Origin: a virus
Virus record (IMG/VR): IMGVR_UViG_3300047509_000142
Span: 1 to 37,874 of that record
Reading direction: 5' to 3' (one strand)
DNA length: 37,874 bases
The position numbers and the translations under genes are program-made. This document shows, one piece after another, positions 1,580 to 11,233 of this stretch (positions are counted from its first letter, which is position 1; every line of letters begins with the position of its first letter). The notes under the pieces are model-generated. The model was not told the DNA's origin. It ran no database searches and worked only from the letters and a program-made list of their open reading frames with translations.

Positions 1580-3064
1580 TCAGGCCGCCATCTCATCCGG
1601 CGAATACAGGCCCATCGTCGCGCCCGGTGCGATGACGCGACCGAGCTGAACCCCACCCGTCTTGCGCAGCATCTCGTCGGGGCGCTTGTCCCAATTGCTG
1701 TTTGGCTTCACCAGGCCAGCCTTCTTCGCCTGGTCGATGGTGTAGCGCAGCTTGATCGGTGGGCGCCCCGCCGCCGCGCCTTGTTTGCTCTGCCCCTCCC
1801 ATTCCGCGTACGTCGCGTCACCGCCGACGAATTCGAGGTATTCGCACTCAGGCGACGCCTTGGCGCGCGCGATGATGAAGTGCGCGTGTGGGCATGGCTT
1901 CCCTTCTACAATGTGAAACAGGTCGAGACTCGTGAGCGCCCCGAGCCCCATCTCGCGGCCTCGAATGATGACGGCGAAGATGGCTTCGGCGGACGGGAAG
2001 CGCGAGTAGAGCCGCGAGTTGTACAGGTCCTGCGCGAGCTTGTACGCGAGCCCGAGCGTCGTCGGTTCCAGGGCGAGGTCCCAGCTTGGCGGCGCCAGGG
2101 CCGCATGCTTCACCTGTACGAGCTCGGCTCTCTCTGTCCTGCGCTCTGGCGCGGGCGCCGCGTCTCCCTGCGCAGCCGGCGGGGGCTCGCTTGGCGTCGT
2201 CGATGCCCCTGGCTCGGACTTGGGAGCGGGCTCGAAATCAGCGTCGTCGAATCCGATGGAATTGGTGCTAGTGGTCAACGGTTTGATCTCCCTGGTCTCG
2301 TACAGCTCAGCAAAATTGATCGGCACGTCGTAGCGTAGCGACACGAGCTTGACGGTCGTCGGCAACCACGCGAGCGCTTCTTTTAGCTTCACGTCGATAG
2401 TCAGCGTCGCCACCGGTTTCGCGCGAGGCTTCACGACTTCGAGCATTACCTGCTCTAGCGTGACGTACTCTTCCAGTAGCTTTGCCGCGCCCCTGGGGCC
2501 GACGCCTTGCACTCCGCGCACGTTGTCGCTCGAGTCGCCGCAGATGGCGAGATAATCGCGCATCTGCTCAGGCCAGACGCCGAACTTCGCGCGCACGCCG
2601 TCTCGCGTCAGTAGCTCGCCAGTCTTCGGGCTCGCCCACGACACGCCGTACTGCACGAGCTGGGTCAAATCCTTGTCGGCACTCGCGACAACAACCTCGT
2701 GCCCAGCGGCTACTGCGGCACGGCAGGCCGTAGCGAGCACGTCATCCGCCTCGAAGCCTTCCGCCTCCCACAGCAAGAGCCCGTCCTTCGCCAGCGTATC
2801 CTTGGCCAGGCGCATCTGCTCGAAAGCGGCGGAATCGCGCGGCGGGCGGTGCGCCTTGTAGCTCGGCTCCAGCTCTTTGCGGAAATTCGACGGCGAATCG
2901 CAGCACACCGCGACCAGCGAATACGGGTAGCCCTCGCGCAGGCGACGCACCTGGTTGACCGAGCGGTCGTGCGCCGCGCTCATCTCGTCCTTGACCGACG
3001 AAAACCACGCGGGCCAGAAAATGGATCCCATATCAATCAGCAGGACAGGCCGTTGCGTGATCAT
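1580..3064 (-). CDS. 5'-3' exonuclease fused to RecT-like ssDNA-annealing domain
   Basis: 494 residues. Residues 1-258 are a PolA/FEN-type 5'-3' exonuclease: the acidic residues are present at D11, D56, the E105-A-D107-D108 cluster, D130/D132 and the GDSSDN motif at 176-181, followed by the GVQGVGPRGAAKLL helix-hairpin-helix. Residues about 258-315 are a Pro/Ala/Glu-rich linker. Residues about 318-494 resemble RecT-family annealing proteins: IFAVIIRGREMGLGALTSL, IVEGKP, CEYLEF, ATYAEW, RYTIDQAKKAGLV, a W..RPDEMLRK segment and MGLYSPDEM near the end. One uninterrupted frame spans both. Known families with these roles resect double strands and anneal the resulting single strands, as lambda Exo and Beta do from two genes. 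Start ATG overlaps the upstream stop (ATGA). Exonuclease part is secure; the annealase call rests on motif memory. Confidence 0.8.
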   Translation of the reverse strand: MITQRPVLLIDMGSIFWPAWFSSVKDEMSAAHDRSVNQVRRLREGYPYSLVAVCCDSPSNFRKELEPSYKAHRPPRDSAAFEQMRLAKDTLAKDGLLLWEAEGFEADDVLATACRAAVAAGHEVVVASADKDLTQLVQYGVSWASPKTGELLTRDGVRAKFGVWPEQMRDYLAICGDSSDNVRGVQGVGPRGAAKLLEEYVTLEQVMLEVVKPRAKPVATLTIDVKLKEALAWLPTTVKLVSLRYDVPINFAELYETREIKPLTTSTNSIGFDDADFEPAPKSEPGASTTPSEPPPAAQGDAAPAPERRTERAELVQVKHAALAPPSWDLALEPTTLGLAYKLAQDLYNSRLYSRFPSAEAIFAVIIRGREMGLGALTSLDLFHIVEGKPCPHAHFIIARAKASPECEYLEFVGGDATYAEWEGQSKQGAAAGRPPIKLRYTIDQAKKAGLVKPNSNWDKRPDEMLRKTGGVQLGRVIAPGATMGLYSPDEMAA

Positions 3065-3324
3065 GCTTTCTCCAATTCGTCGAACACCGCACGCAGCCTG
3101 ACCACGCTCGCCTCGAGTCCGCGGAGCCCGCCGGCAGCCATGCGCGTGTCGCCGTGCATCAACTCGTCAATCAGGCTGTGCAGGTTGCTGTTACAGGTCT
3201 GCGCCCATGCGAGCGCCGAGTCTTCCATGGCTTCGCGTGATGGCTTCGCTTTGACGACGCTGCCGCCGGGGAACCGAAGCGCTAGCGCCTCGTCGATGAG
3301 CGCGACCTCGCTGGCGGCGCTCAC
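3061..3324 (-). CDS. Hypothetical early protein
   Basis: 87 residues, not recognised. Mostly helical in appearance, with a C-terminal segment ending in VRLRAVFDELEKA. No cysteines pattern, signal or membrane segment. It overlaps the ParB-like gene upstream by 4 bp and the exonuclease-annealase gene downstream by 4 bp (ATGA), so it belongs to the same transcript and may serve recombination or replication. Confidence 0.65.
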   Translation of the reverse strand: MSAASEVALIDEALALRFPGGSVVKAKPSREAMEDSALAWAQTCNSNLHSLIDELMHGDTRMAAGGLRGLEASVVRLRAVFDELEKA

Positions 3325-4139
3325 TTTTCGAACCCCGGTTTGGTGAGCGTGATGACGATGTCAGCGCCGGGCGTGTTCGGCAGCTTGAGCGTGCGGCGCT
3401 TGGTCGTCACGAAGCGGTAGCCAGCCTCGCCCGAATAGACCGAGCGCTGCTCTTTGTTGCACAGAAAGTGCGTCACGCAATTGAGGCAGGCAAGCGCGCT
3501 GTCCCAGGGCTGCAACGCGCGCCGGTTGGCTTCGAGCCACCCACGGAGCGCGAATGCCGGGTCGCCACGCTTGAGCATTTCTCCGCGCGAGACCTGTGCC
3601 GCGAATTCGACAACGCGATCGCTGACTGGCACGGCCCAAACCAACGCAGCGATGATGCCGCCGAAAAGCTTGTCGCGGCCCGGAACGGGGGCCAGCGCCG
3701 CTAAGTCATCGGCGAAAAGCTCGTACACGGCCGTGCTCTGCGCCGCGGTCATGTTCGTCGTGAACTGGTAGCCATCAACGAAGCCACGGAGCACCTTGCA
3801 GGCCGCGATCGTCTTGGTCGTGTAACCCGTCAGGTAGCTCGTGGTGCGCTTGCGGTGCGTGTCGATCGGGTCGCCGATTTCGCTACCCGAGTTTTCGGCC
3901 ACGAGGATTTCGACCGTCTTGCCGGCTTGCACGATCGCGTTGAGCCGGTGCTGACCGTCGATGAGGCAGCCGTCGCCGTCAAAGCAGATACCCTGATGCG
4001 TGATTTTCCAGTTGCCGTTGGCGATGTCCCCCGCGATGGCATCGACGATCGCCTGCGAGATACGGCGATTTTTCGGGTGGTTTTTCTTCAGCCACTTTTC
4101 GGCCATCGCTGGCGTGACCTTTTTCAGCTCGATATTCAC
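3321..4139 (-). CDS. ParB/sulfiredoxin-like domain protein
   Basis: 272 residues from a GTG start. The N-terminal half carries the ParB/Srx signature: a K-x-H-P-K-N-R-R-I-S segment, IANGNWKITHQGICFDGDG, then DGQHRLNAIVQAGKTVEILV. Proteins with this fold bind or cleave nucleic acid, or act as nucleotide-dependent clamps; no C-terminal DNA-binding domain that would show a partition role is recognised here. The GTG at 4139 is chosen because GGGAGG lies 5 nt upstream and GTGA overlaps the previous stop; the frame is also open further upstream but without such a signal. The C-terminal half is unrecognised. Member of the early operon. Confidence 0.7.
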   Translation of the reverse strand: MNIELKKVTPAMAEKWLKKNHPKNRRISQAIVDAIAGDIANGNWKITHQGICFDGDGCLIDGQHRLNAIVQAGKTVEILVAENSGSEIGDPIDTHRKRTTSYLTGYTTKTIAACKVLRGFVDGYQFTTNMTAAQSTAVYELFADDLAALAPVPGRDKLFGGIIAALVWAVPVSDRVVEFAAQVSRGEMLKRGDPAFALRGWLEANRRALQPWDSALACLNCVTHFLCNKEQRSVYSGEAGYRFVTTKRRTLKLPNTPGADIVITLTKPGFEK

Positions 4140-4396
4140 GACGCCTCCCTCATTGCGTAAGCGCGCTCGCTGCGCGAATTGAACGGCAGCCGCACGAGAT
4201 GCGCCGTGCGGAACCACTCACCGCTCAGCCACTGGAATTGGTCGGCGCGCTCTTTCTCGAGCTGCGCGGCAGCCTTGGCTTGCGATTCCTCCCAGCACGC
4301 GAGGCAGCTGCCGTCATTGCCCTCGTGGGGCTCGTCGGGTAGCTCGGCGCCACATGCCACGCACTGAGCGGGCGCCACGTCGTACAGGCCGATCAC
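4136..4396 (-). CDS. Small zinc-ribbon protein
   Basis: 86 residues from a GTG start overlapping the previous stop. Two CxxC pairs (CVAC near residue 12 and CLAC near residue 32) are spaced as in a zinc ribbon. The C-terminal half is charged and helical, with WFRTAHLVRLPF. Likely a nucleic-acid or protein-binding accessory factor; the exact role is unknown. It sits directly before the ParB-like gene. Confidence 0.65.
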   Translation of the reverse strand: MIGLYDVAPAQCVACGAELPDEPHEGNDGSCLACWEESQAKAAAQLEKERADQFQWLSGEWFRTAHLVRLPFNSRSERAYAMREAS

Positions 4397-5464: not shown

Positions 5465-5896
5465 CTAGCGCGAATGCTCGTCGGCGGGGGCGGAGAGGGC
5501 GGCGGGGGCCTGCACATTTTCGAGCTTCTTAGCCAACAGCAAGGCGACCCAATAGTCGGCGCCGGGGTCTCGCTCGAGATCGGCGACGCTGGACACGGCA
5601 GCGATTATCGCCTTCGAGTAGCCAAGGACGTAAGCAGCGGCGATGGCGCGACGCCTGGAGGGATAAAGCGTGTCCTCAGGCAAATCCGCGGCGAAACTGC
5701 CGGTAGCGAGCCATTCGAATGAGACCTCGGCCGCCTTGGCGAGCTTCGCCAGCGTGCGGCTCTCCATGCTGTCGCGCCCGTCCTTGATCGCGAGACGCAC
5801 CGTGGCGCGCGGCACGTCCGCCTTCTGCGCCCATGACGACGGGTTCAGCCCGCGCAGGGCCATGACCTCACTGAGGCGTTCTGCCAGCGTGCTCAC
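5465..5896 (-). CDS. XRE-family phage repressor
   Basis: 143 residues from the GTG at 5896. Residues about 1-65 form an XRE helix-turn-helix: LAERLSEVMALRGLNPSSWAQ, then DVPRATVRLAI as recognition region and SRTLAKLAKAAEVSFEWLATG. The C-terminal half is Ala-rich and helical and contains no LexA/S24 Ser-Lys peptidase motifs, so RecA-driven self-cleavage is not expected. It is divergent from the Cro-like gene, with operators between and a further weak operator-like site (5907-5918) just before the start. No Shine-Dalgarno is seen; the start is therefore uncertain and upstream in-frame ATGs cannot be excluded. Likely maintains lysogeny by binding the paired palindromes at 5203-5232 and 5956-5985. 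Confidence 0.8.
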   Translation of the reverse strand: MSTLAERLSEVMALRGLNPSSWAQKADVPRATVRLAIKDGRDSMESRTLAKLAKAAEVSFEWLATGSFAADLPEDTLYPSRRRAIAAAYVLGYSKAIIAAVSSVADLERDPGADYWVALLLAKKLENVQAPAALSAPADEHSR

Positions 5897-5906
5897 AGGT
5901 GAGAGA

Positions 5907-5918
5907 GTAACTGAATAC
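5907..5918 (-). promoter_or_regulatory. Weak operator-like site before the repressor
   Basis: GTAACTGAATAC keeps the GTAAC half and the final TAC of the 12-bp operators but has a damaged second half. On the minus strand it overlaps a TATTCA box about 15 nt before the repressor GTG. It could mediate autoregulation. One imperfect site, so weakly supported. Confidence 0.3.
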
Positions 5919-5951
5919 GCCGCCATGCCGAGCCCGTGAAACGATTCGCGC

Positions 5952-5985
5952 TTGCGTAACCTGTTACCCTGGGGTAAGAGCTTAC
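5952..5985 (+). promoter_or_regulatory. Cro-like gene promoter with two operators
   Basis: -35 TTGCGT (5952-5957), 17-bp spacer, -10 TAAGAG (5975-5980), then 7 nt to the ATG at 5988. Palindromes GTAACCTGTTAC (5956-5967) and GTAAGAGCTTAC (5974-5985) start 18 bp apart and overlap the -35 and -10 boxes. The -35, spacer length, operator spacing and leaderless distance equal those at 5203-5236. Confidence 0.8.
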
Positions 5986-5987
5986 GC

Positions 5988-6251
5988 ATGGGTGATATTG
6001 CTGAACGACTCAAATGGGCTCGGGGTGTCACCGGCCTGAGTCAAAAACGGTTGGCGAATGCGGCCGGGCTCCAGAGCGACGGGCCAGTGCGGCACCTAGA
6101 ATCGGGTCTGACCAAGACGGTCGAGTCCGGGACCGCGGTCGCGCTCTCGGCGGTGCTTGGTTGCTCCGTCGATTGGCTGCTGACCGGTGAGGGCGACCCG
6201 CCGAAGGAAGAGACGCTGCGCGCGCTCTCTGAGCCCGGAGCGGCGGAATGA
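5988..6251 (+). CDS. Cro-like XRE regulator
   Basis: 87 residues. The first 65 residues are an XRE helix-turn-helix: IAERLKWARGVTGLSQKRLANAAGL with the turn at GLQSDGPVRHLESG, then AVALSAVLGCSVDWLLTGEG, a typical end of the domain. The short tail is unstructured. ATG at 5988 is chosen because it sits 7 nt after the -10 box and directly after operator 2; an upstream ATG at 5952 would place the start inside the promoter. Divergent from the repressor and controlled by the same operators, so it is the natural candidate for the lytic-side regulator. Confidence 0.8.
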   Translation: MGDIAERLKWARGVTGLSQKRLANAAGLQSDGPVRHLESGLTKTVESGTAVALSAVLGCSVDWLLTGEGDPPKEETLRALSEPGAAE

Positions 6252-7567: not shown

Positions 7568-7917
7568 CGATTCTCACGCCCGCCGCCGTCGCGCTGCGCA
7601 TGGAATGCACCGTGCGCGCCGCGTTCAAGCTGCTGCGTCGGTTCGGCGCGCTCTCTTGTCGCGACTCGGACGGCAAACCCTCGCTTCGAATCACTGAGGA
7701 AAGGTTCCTGGAATGTCTGTCAAACGAGATGGCATCTACAAGCGCGGCTCGGTCTGGTGGCTCCGGACGGACCCCGTCACCGGCAAAGCCCTCTCGACGC
7801 GGTGCAAAGACCTTGAGGCCGCTCGCAGATTCCGAGCGAAGCGCGAACGCCTCGCAGCCGACCCGGCCCACGCAGCCGCGGAAACGGCGCGTCTCGACGA
7901 ATGGATCCGCCGCGTGA
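7564..7917 (+). CDS. Excisionase-like helix-turn-helix protein
   Basis: 117 residues from a TTG that overlaps the previous stop (TTGA). Residues 1-50 (LTPAAVALRMECTVRAAFKL ... LRITEERFLECL) look like a small winged helix-turn-helix of the MerR/excisionase kind. The rest is a basic, Ser/Arg/Pro-rich tail that is read from the same bases as the first 205 bp of the integrase in another frame. The integrase start at 7713 is sound, so either this is a true long overlap or the working protein is only the first half. Position just before the integrase supports a role in excision direction. Confidence 0.55.
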   Translation: MTILTPAAVALRMECTVRAAFKLLRRFGALSCRDSDGKPSLRITEERFLECLSNEMASTSAARSGGSGRTPSPAKPSRRGAKTLRPLADSERSANASQPTRPTQPRKRRVSTNGSAA

Positions 7918-8945
7918 TTGCGGTGAAGGAGTCGGACGGCTCGGCCGAGGCCACCGTCGAGGTATACCGGACGAAGCTCGGCCATTGGCTGCGGCTCGCG
8001 CCCGACGCGATGCTGTCCGAGGTACAGCCGCCTTTCGTTGACGCCTTCGTCGCGCAGCGCCGGACCGAGGACGTGACCGACCACACCATTTCGAAAGAGG
8101 TCACGCACCTGTGCACCGTGCTCAAGGCTGCCGAGCGCGCCGGCTGCTATTCGGGCAACATCGCTACCCTGCGCCCGCCGGGCCTGCATGCCGGCTACAA
8201 GCCCCGCAAGCGCGCCCTGTCCCGCGAGGAGGTTGTGGCACTCATGAGCGAGCTGAAGCCCGAGCTAGCCGCCCTGGTGGCCATCTGCGTGGCGCTTGGC
8301 TGTCGGCTGTCCGAGGCCTTTCGTTTGCAGCCGGGTGACGTGGGTGCGACTAGCGTGCACATTAAGGGGACAAAAACCGATGAAGCTGACCGCCATGTCC
8401 CGATCCTTTCCGTGTTTCGGTGTCTTCTTGCCGAGGGCGCGCGTTTCCTCCCCCTCGGAGCTGAGCCAAATAATCTCCGCAGAGATCTCGCGGCAGCTTG
8501 CCGCAGAGCCGGAATCGCCGTCGCCACCCCCAACGACCTACGACGTACGCATGCCACGCTCTTGGCCAGTGCTGGAGTCGATCGGGATGTCACCCGGCGA
8601 CTCCTCGGACATACGACCACCCGTCTCGTTGATACTGTCTACGGGCACCCAACGACGGAAGCGCTAGGGGCGCTCGCGGAAGCGAAGCTGCTGACCGCGG
8701 CACCGTTACAAGGACGCGACAGTCAGGCCAAGGAGATGAAGAAACCAGGAGCCGATTCGGGTATTCGAAACCCGGACCTGCGGTTTACGAAACCGGTATC
8801 ACGCCCGCCCGAAACGCGCCTATCCGTACTTCTACGGCGTTATCCCGGTCTAAGCCGGGGCGAACTGCTGCGAAGCGGAGCGGTTGACGATACAAGGACG
8901 CGACAGTCCGTCAGGGCTGCGGACCTGGCGGCGGTGGCGCCGTGA
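7713..8945 (+). CDS. int: Tyrosine integrase
   Basis: 410 residues. N-terminal part: GIYKRGSVWWLRTDPVTGK arm-type fold, then a core-binding domain (about 58-150). Catalytic domain from about 165: R198 in GCRLSEA, K221 in KGTKTDE, N274-D-L-R277 where many family members have His-x-x-Arg, H300 in LLGH and the nucleophile Y310 in DTVYGH. The approximately 95 residues after the tyrosine pass through an attP-like core (residues about 346-361) that is antisense to the 3' half of a tRNA-Thr; the GIRNPDLRF text is typical of such antisense tRNA reading. The last base pairs overlap the next gene as GTGA. Needed for integration and excision. It follows the excisionase-like gene. Confidence 0.93.
   Translation: MSVKRDGIYKRGSVWWLRTDPVTGKALSTRCKDLEAARRFRAKRERLAADPAHAAAETARLDEWIRRVIAVKESDGSAEATVEVYRTKLGHWLRLAPDAMLSEVQPPFVDAFVAQRRTEDVTDHTISKEVTHLCTVLKAAERAGCYSGNIATLRPPGLHAGYKPRKRALSREEVVALMSELKPELAALVAICVALGCRLSEAFRLQPGDVGATSVHIKGTKTDEADRHVPILSVFRCLLAEGARFLPLGAEPNNLRRDLAAACRRAGIAVATPNDLRRTHATLLASAGVDRDVTRRLLGHTTTRLVDTVYGHPTTEALGALAEAKLLTAAPLQGRDSQAKEMKKPGADSGIRNPDLRFTKPVSRPPETRLSVLLRRYPGLSRGELLRSGAVDDTRTRQSVRAADLAAVAP
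8707..8724 (+). repeat. Candidate integrase arm site, left copy
   Basis: TACAAGGACGCGACAGTC occurs here and again, exactly and in the same direction, at 8891-8908. The two copies flank the attP-like core, as arm-type integrase sites do. Both lie in the 3' part of the integrase gene. Confidence 0.6.
8748..8795 (-). other. Putative attP core (3' half of tRNA-Thr(CGU))
   Basis: Read on the minus strand this contains an anticodon loop TTCGTAA (anticodon CGT), the 3' stem strand ACCGC, a T-arm CGGGT-TTCGAAT-ACCCG (8758-8774), and an acceptor end GGCTCC. The 5' half of the anticodon stem already departs from the pairing expected, so identity with the host tRNA probably ends there. No full tRNA is present. 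Such a partial tRNA in a phage next to its integrase is the usual attP core, which restores the tRNA on integration. Confidence 0.65.
8891..8908 (+). repeat. Candidate integrase arm site, right copy
   Basis: Second exact copy of the 18-bp repeat described at 8707-8724, 96 bp beyond the right edge of the core. Confidence 0.6.
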
Positions 8946-10002: not shown

Positions 10003-10349
10003 AGTCCGATTATCGGTATCTGGAATTCATGGTGTCCTGTTGTGTAGCGCTTCAGGTCGACGTGGAGGACGTGCTGAGCCGCGTGCGCTTTCCGCGCGCC
10101 GTGGTGGAGGCGCGACACTTGGTCGCGTTCGGCCTGCGCGAGCGCTTCAATCTGAGTTATCCCCACACTGGGCACATCTTGGGGGCTCGCGATCACACCA
10201 CTGTGATGCACTCGATTAGCGTTGTGCGCGCCGCGGAGCTAGCTGGCAAGCTCTGGGCGACAGAGGGCCTACTGCGCGTGCGTGCGGTCGCTCCGCTGAC
10301 GCCCGCCGTCGAGCTCGAGTCGCCGCTGGAAAGCTTGGGGCACGGATGA
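9999..10349 (+). CDS. Stand-alone DnaA domain IV-like protein
   Basis: 116 residues from TTG (TTGA overlap; GGAG about 10 nt upstream). Residues about 10-75 match the C-terminal DNA-binding domain of DnaA: VALQVDVEDVLSRVR, then VVEARHLVAFGLRERFNLSYPHTGHILGARDHTTVMHS, including the GARDHTTVMH signature that reads the DnaA box. The AAA+ ATPase and domain I are absent. It may mark or mask DnaA boxes on phage or host DNA. It is followed immediately by the replication initiator-like gene. A shorter start at the ATG near residue 11 is possible. Confidence 0.8.
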   Translation: MKSDYRYLEFMVSCCVALQVDVEDVLSRVRFPRAVVEARHLVAFGLRERFNLSYPHTGHILGARDHTTVMHSISVVRAAELAGKLWATEGLLRVRAVAPLTPAVELESPLESLGHG

Positions 10350-11233
10350 GTTGGTCCAAGTTCGATGACGCCGCGCCGAAAAGCCCGAAGGCTGTCATCG
10401 CCGGGAACGAGGCGTGGTCGCTGTGGGCAGCCGCGGTCATGTACTGCAACCGGCACAACACCGATGGCTACGTGACTCTCGCGGCGCTCGCGGTCGACTG
10501 CCTGCCGAGGCCGATACCGGTCGCGAAAGCGCGCAAGCTGGCGGACGCGCTGTGCGATGCGCGGGCTCGTCCCGAAGGCAAAGGGCTCTTTGAGCTGGAC
10601 AGGAATGACATGTATCGAGTCCACGATTTCCTAGATTGGAATCCGTCAAAAGCCGAAGTGGAATCCAAGCGGAAACTAGACCGCGACCGGAAGCGCGGCG
10701 GACGCGGAGTCGAGCAGGATTCCGAGCGGAAGCCAAGCGGACGGCGAACGGATTCCGTCCCCCCGCGCGCCTCTCCCGTCCCGACCTCTCCCGTCCCGAC
10801 CATACCCGACCCGGATGAGAGCGCGCGCGCGTCCGTGCCCGACGAGCAAGGCACATGGGACGGCTCGGAGCGGGAAACCGCCTGCCCACTGGACATCGCG
10901 CAGCGAGCAAAAGTGCTCGGAATCCCCGAAAAACTAGCCGAATCGCTGAAAGTCGACCGCTCCGCCGTTGATGCTCTTATCCACGATTTCGCGAGCTATT
11001 GGACCATCGGCGGCGGGATGGGCCAGAAACGCCGGCATTGGATGCGAAAGCTGCGGGAGAACGTGCGGAAGGAGGCCGGAAAACCCGGTGGATTGCCAGC
11101 GCCGGGCGCGCTCGAGCATTCGAATCTGACGCGGGAAAGCCGGATTGTGCTGAAAGAAATCGACCAGGTCGAACAAAGCCGCCTGGTTTACGAGGCTGAA
11201 AAGAAGCGAAGGGCGGCGGCAAATGGCCAGTGA
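10346..11233 (+). CDS. Phage replication initiator-like protein (winged helix)
   Basis: 295 residues. N-terminal 100 residues: W-S-K-FDD..P, AAVMYCNRHNTDGYVTLAAL, ALCDA...GLFELDRNDMYRVHDFLDWN, a pattern common in phage replisome-organiser proteins with a winged helix. The middle (about 105-175) is a low-complexity Arg/Ser/Pro linker with repeated SPVPT. The C-terminal 110 residues (WTIGGGMGQKRRHWMRKLRENV) resemble the domain that contacts helicase or loader in DnaT/O-like proteins. Adjacent to a DnaA-like gene. Likely starts phage DNA replication. Confidence 0.7.
   Translation: MSWSKFDDAAPKSPKAVIAGNEAWSLWAAAVMYCNRHNTDGYVTLAALAVDCLPRPIPVAKARKLADALCDARARPEGKGLFELDRNDMYRVHDFLDWNPSKAEVESKRKLDRDRKRGGRGVEQDSERKPSGRRTDSVPPRASPVPTSPVPTIPDPDESARASVPDEQGTWDGSERETACPLDIAQRAKVLGIPEKLAESLKVDRSAVDALIHDFASYWTIGGGMGQKRRHWMRKLRENVRKEAGKPGGLPAPGALEHSNLTRESRIVLKEIDQVEQSRLVYEAEKKRRAAANGQ

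Follow-up and report, generated by a model that had tools for sequence, protein, structure and literature searches.

A predicted one-chain nuclease-annealase of uncultured phages joins a FEN-type domain to a RecT/Redbeta-type core

Sequence comparisons give good support to a conserved and widespread protein of uncultured phages in which a predicted exonuclease and a predicted annealase share a single chain. We read this fusion, with a probability of roughly 0.7, as a phage single-strand-annealing recombinase in which a tethered FEN-type domain would resect DNA and a RecT/Redbeta core would anneal the strand so exposed. The gene lies in a 37,874-base virus contig, analysed at its full length and referred to here as the window. 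A check of the open reading frames returned the coordinates given in a preliminary description of this DNA and placed the gene on the minus strand. The gene, its domains and the two reading frames upstream of it are as follows.

1580..3064, minus strand: FEN-RecT fusion gene, 494 aa; ATG at 3064, stop at 1580-1582, single frame with no internal stop
2291..3064, minus strand: FEN/PolA-type 5' nuclease domain, residues 1-258 (Pfam, structure match, invariant acids)
2096..2275, minus strand: disordered Pro/Ala/Glu-rich linker, residues 264-323 (pLDDT below 50, length and sequence unconserved, fast-evolving)
1583..2083, minus strand: RecT/Redbeta annealase core lacking the usual C-terminal tail, residues 328-494 (Pfam, AlphaFold, Foldseek, VIA, hmmsearch)
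3061..3324, minus strand: 87-aa ORF upstream of the fusion gene, overlapping its start by 4 nt (ATGA)
3321..4217, minus strand: 298-aa ORF upstream of the 87-aa ORF, phrog_5931, overlapping the latter by 4 nt (GTGA)

From the two short overlaps, the 298-aa ORF, the 87-aa ORF and the fusion are probably co-translated. The 87-aa ORF had no match in Pfam or NCBIfam. Besides phrog_5931, the 298-aa ORF of this apparent operon has just weak PHROG matches, including a ParB-like one. A 307-aa ORF at positions 157-1080 of the window gives a borderline match to DUF6745, and similar ORFs are found near the fusion genes of L019 and L037. The contig further encodes a CI-type repressor (5465-6031), a tyrosine integrase (7713-8945), a replication initiation protein (10346-11233), a large terminase and a P22/SU10-type portal; the virus looks like a temperate tailed phage and is probably podovirus-like.

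Two Pfam domains were found above their cut-offs in the N-terminal half, 5_3_exonuc_N at residues 7-162 (1e-26, 93.9 bits against a cut-off of 34.3) and 5_3_exonuc at residues 163-252 (7e-19, 68.5 bits against 40). All nine catalytic acids of the PolA/Taq set are there (D11, D56, E105, D107, D108, D130, D132, D177 and D180); D11 sits in the N-terminal LLID motif, beyond the alignment with Taq, and the alignment supports the placing of the acids that fall inside it. None of the nine acids varies among the 55 distinct complete relatives, and neither do R62 and K70. The predicted structure of the nuclease matches ExoIX, M. smegmatis FenA and T5 FEN with Z values of 24.7-28.6 over 228-260 residues. 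By sequence and by modelled fold the N-terminal half is a member of the FEN/PolA family with predicted 5' nuclease activity, and the earlier characterization of it as a complete exonuclease of this type, with every expected acidic residue, holds. No DNA polymerase A gene was found in 24 fusion-bearing contigs (DNA_pol_A in 0/24), which rules out that the FEN domain is the detached nuclease, or a fragment, of a phage PolA.

The C-terminal half is more divergent from its solved relatives, with about 16% identity to Redbeta. It matches Pfam RecT at 2.6e-6 (27.6 bits against a cut-off of 24), a cut-off below which some other members of the fusion family fall individually, the domain being common to them by alignment, and it matches the RecT-like annealing proteins of PHROG at 1e-7. 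When a profile of 24 relatives was run with hmmsearch against all PDB sequences, lambda Redbeta (7UJL) was the sole match (1.4e-4). The AlphaFold model of the C-terminal domain alone (pLDDT 92.6) contains the hairpin, the sheet strands and the C-terminal helix, and the N-terminal domain of lambda Redbeta (7UJL) was again the sole Foldseek match below 0.001 in the PDB (1.2e-4, TM 0.58-0.62). The VIA comparison ranked Redbeta highest (Z 8.2 over 133 residues), ahead of Listeria phage RecT (5.9) and human RAD52 (5.1), all of these Z values being moderate. In the profile alignment W458 and R476, invariant in all 55 relatives, correspond to Redbeta W143 and R161, residues that touch the template strand; mutation of R161 reportedly lowers annealing efficiency in vivo 1000-fold (PMC9512822). 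A non-annealase identity was looked for, and the domain fell in the RecT/Redbeta annealase family, to which it belongs by sequence and modelled fold; annealing is the predicted activity. The preliminary description, which had placed a RecT-like domain at residues 315-494, was thus right as to its identity; as to its start it was not, the folded part beginning at about residue 328.

Between the two confidently modelled domains, pLDDT stays below 50 across 60 residues (264-323) rich in proline, alanine and glutamate, in agreement with the 55-60-residue Pro-rich linker first proposed. Linker sequences are poorly conserved among the relatives, and the spacing between the domain matches varies from 53 to 194 residues in the 55. 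Three close pairs were used for estimates of selection. The dN/dS was 0.07-0.14 in the nuclease domain and 0.04-0.13 in the annealase domain; for the linker it was 0.44-0.58 in two of the pairs and saturated in the third. Both domains are therefore under purifying selection in these pairs while the linker drifts, a pattern indicating that the linker mostly need only exist and be flexible.

The annealase half also differs from its stand-alone relatives at its end. After the annealase core, the 55 fused proteins have a tail of 1-15 aa and 35 stand-alone relatives one of 28-318 aa, so that the two ranges do not meet. In Redbeta, residues 1-177 are enough for annealing, and residues 178-261 interact with lambda Exo (PMC9512822). 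What the fusions lack is thus the very part that would become redundant with a nuclease already attached, and the best reading of the comparison is that the linker replaces a protein-protein contact between nuclease and annealase.

Scans of IMG/VR identified single-ORF relatives at roughly 30-79% identity. With duplicates and contig-edge cases dropped, 55 distinct complete relatives remained, the window's own copy counted, and the search for homologues of the same two-domain order thus gave a uniform answer, as every one keeps the FEN-then-RecT order in one ORF. These copies come from many separate assemblies and carry different linkers. They refute the reading that neighbouring genes were joined here by an assembly or sequencing error, in favour of which stands nothing more than the fact that two-gene arrangements are usual in cultured phages; its probability is practically nil. 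Among the loci fetched, no two-gene split form of the same FEN and the same RecT was seen. The RecT locus scan, which used a narrower alignment, included one apparently unfused RecT (L125) that proved to be a gene cut by the end of its contig. The RecT tree would allow the fusion to have arisen once.

No fusion was found in cultured phages, as 96 INPHARED records had a match and in no place did one cover 80% of the query. Nor was one found in bacterial genomes, where eight genome-contig matches covered essentially the FEN half alone; 195 Myxococcota genomes gave no match to the RecT domain at E 1e-10. One database entry, A0A6J5MUB0 (462 aa, uncultured Caudovirales phage), aligns with the fusion over the full length of both proteins (34% identity, Foldseek 1.7e-41) and is, from this whole-length alignment, probably the same fusion. 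It is named 'PIN_53EXO domain containing protein', a name that covers the nuclease half alone.

In order to see which nucleases accompany unfused annealases, we examined ten cultured-phage records with stand-alone relatives. A RecE/YqaJ-type or PD-(D/E)XK nuclease gene adjoins the annealase gene in eight of them (Nadezda, Evamon, Anatole, Phonegingi, Sleepyhead, GMA1, Dewey and P54_PAE_BP), consistent with the expectation that two genes are the norm for phage systems. Synechococcus phage S-LBS1 has a VRR-NUC gene in this position, and no recognised nuclease gene was found beside the stand-alone relative of the Salinibacter phage. A RecT-like annealase (L103:5923-6936) occurs in 185 Salinibacter ruber phage records and is called 'hypothetical protein' among the records listed.

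The neighbourhoods of the fusion genes are different. The A4 scan placed a RecE-like gene near 0 of 31 fused and 9 of 26 stand-alone loci (Fisher p 3e-4, a value that overstates independence, as the loci are related). PF09588 detects RecE-like genes in just 3 of 24 stand-alone contigs, so that its absence alone is weak evidence; the annotated RecE-like neighbours were for this reason also made into a profile, and it found no RecE-like gene near any of the 55 fusions. YqaJ (0/24 fusion contigs) and DUF3799 (0/17) gave no matches, and PDDEXK_1 gave one, below its cut-off, in 17 fusion contigs. Together with the FEN Pfam domains, the lack of a RecE-like neighbour fits the earlier proposal that a FEN-type nuclease is used instead of a lambda-Exo-type one. 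Since no RecE-like gene was detected for some close stand-alone relatives (e.g. L145 and L157), and since many contigs are fragments, from which the lack of other nucleases can be judged only in part, nuclease replacement is best described as a strong tendency and not as proven for every case. Four of 24 fusion contigs (L030, L036, L002 and L003) have an SSB gene, each time directly downstream of the fusion, as expected of a recombination operon.

These observations suggest the following course of events. The FEN-type domain would remove nucleotides from the 5' ends of phage DNA and so expose a 3' single strand, which the RecT/Redbeta-type domain, held on its long flexible linker, could bind as it appears and anneal to a complementary strand. 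Later the FEN domain might also trim 5' flaps at the joint, after which host polymerase and ligase would seal it. The tether would here do the job of the C-terminal domain of the lambda Red annealase, namely binding of the exonuclease. From the protein sequence it is sound to expect that a single chain would couple resection to strand annealing, as was originally proposed; we infer the polarity and substrate of the nuclease, annealing itself, the order of events, flap trimming and the role in replication or recombination.

FEN enzymes are usually directed to flaps or gaps and are not highly processive, so that resection over long stretches, as lambda Exo performs it, cannot be taken for granted. 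RecT might then anneal strands produced by other nucleases, with the tethered FEN only trimming 5' flaps or removing Okazaki RNA primers. The nearest relatives of the FEN half, ExoIX, FenA and T5 FEN, do act on flaps and gaps, and for a phage without DNA polymerase A its own trimming of flaps after annealing could be useful. Early models of Red likewise invoke a 5'-3' exonuclease or the flap endonuclease of PolI in resolving the joint (PMC7496540). Against this, the RecE-type resection gene is absent from the fusion loci, which suggests that the FEN domain has taken over resection. Moreover, the FEN-type phage exonucleases T7 gp6 and T5 D15 also degrade duplex ends. We regard a role confined to flaps and primers as unlikely, though with an appreciable chance of being correct.

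A much smaller probability attaches to the idea that the RecT-like part has degenerated into an ssDNA-binding module which targets or tightens the FEN domain and no longer anneals. The domain is indeed short (about 165 residues) and is without the C-terminal tail of its stand-alone relatives, but the matching core of Redbeta, residues 1-177, suffices for annealing (PMC9512822). The DNA-contact residues of the core are invariant throughout the 55 relatives, its dN/dS is as low as that of the nuclease, and the fold keeps its hairpin, sheet strands and C-terminal helix, all of which argue against degeneration. Resection by the tethered FEN followed by annealing by the RecT/Redbeta core is the reading that we prefer over both.

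A FEN domain is also joined to a different annealase. In another virus contig (L049:8001-9461, with the same gene in L193) the partner matches phrog_3290 (4e-48) and is about 51% identical to mycobacteriophage proteins, Clarkson gp68 among them; the adjacent Clarkson gp67 carries an exonuclease annotation. Judged by coordinates, Clarkson gp68 extends about 194 residues further beyond the core, whereas the L049 protein stops six residues after the PHROG match. A Streptomyces phage homologue scored below the cut-off against Pfam Rad52_Rad22 (0.022), so that 'Rad52-like' is here a lead only. The L049 FEN falls among the fused FENs (98 SH-aLRT) on a long branch, a position that would suit either an exchange of annealases within one FEN lineage or a second fusion event. 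We tentatively consider, at somewhat less than even odds, that self-contained one-protein recombinases, which would resect, anneal and trim their own flaps, arose or changed partners more than once, with RecT-type cores in some and another, possibly Rad52-like, annealase in L049.

The fusion may help with a question left open for lambda Red, that is, how the 3' strand passes from exonuclease to annealase, a trimeric nuclease and annealase oligomers being hard to reconcile (PMC9512822). A natural chain with both predicted activities has a 1:1 stoichiometry and could be severed at its linker, making the coupling directly testable. The fusion is also a candidate single gene for double-strand DNA recombineering. 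No FEN-RecT fusion was found in full-text literature searches, in which journal coverage was partial, and no NCBIfam model describes one.

Among known proteins, the PolA 5' nuclease domain, ExoIX/Xni and FenA are the nearest relatives of the N-terminal half in sequence and structure. None of these carries an annealase, and PolA bears a polymerase instead. Xni/ExoIX is missing part of the catalytic acid set; unlike it, the FEN domain of the fusion has the set complete. T7 gp6 and T5 D15 are, like the nuclease of the fusion, members of the FEN superfamily, acting as 5' exonucleases in phage replication and recombination, and in structure T5 D15 matches that nuclease closely. T7 gp6 and gp2.5, however, are encoded by separate genes, and the annealer gp2.5 has an OB fold and is no RecT. 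The closest functional parallel would be lambda Red (lambda Exo with Redbeta) and RecE/RecT, in which a 5'-3' nuclease is likewise paired with an annealase of the RecT/Redbeta family; for lambda, two-component phage recombinases of this sort have been described (PMC7496540, PMC9772228). Those systems consist of two genes, a PD-(D/E)XK toroid and an annealase with a C-terminal domain, while the fusion is one chain with a FEN-type nuclease and no such domain. Because the separate PD-(D/E)XK gene and the annealase C-terminal domain are both missing, the fusion stands outside the two-gene Red/RecET system.
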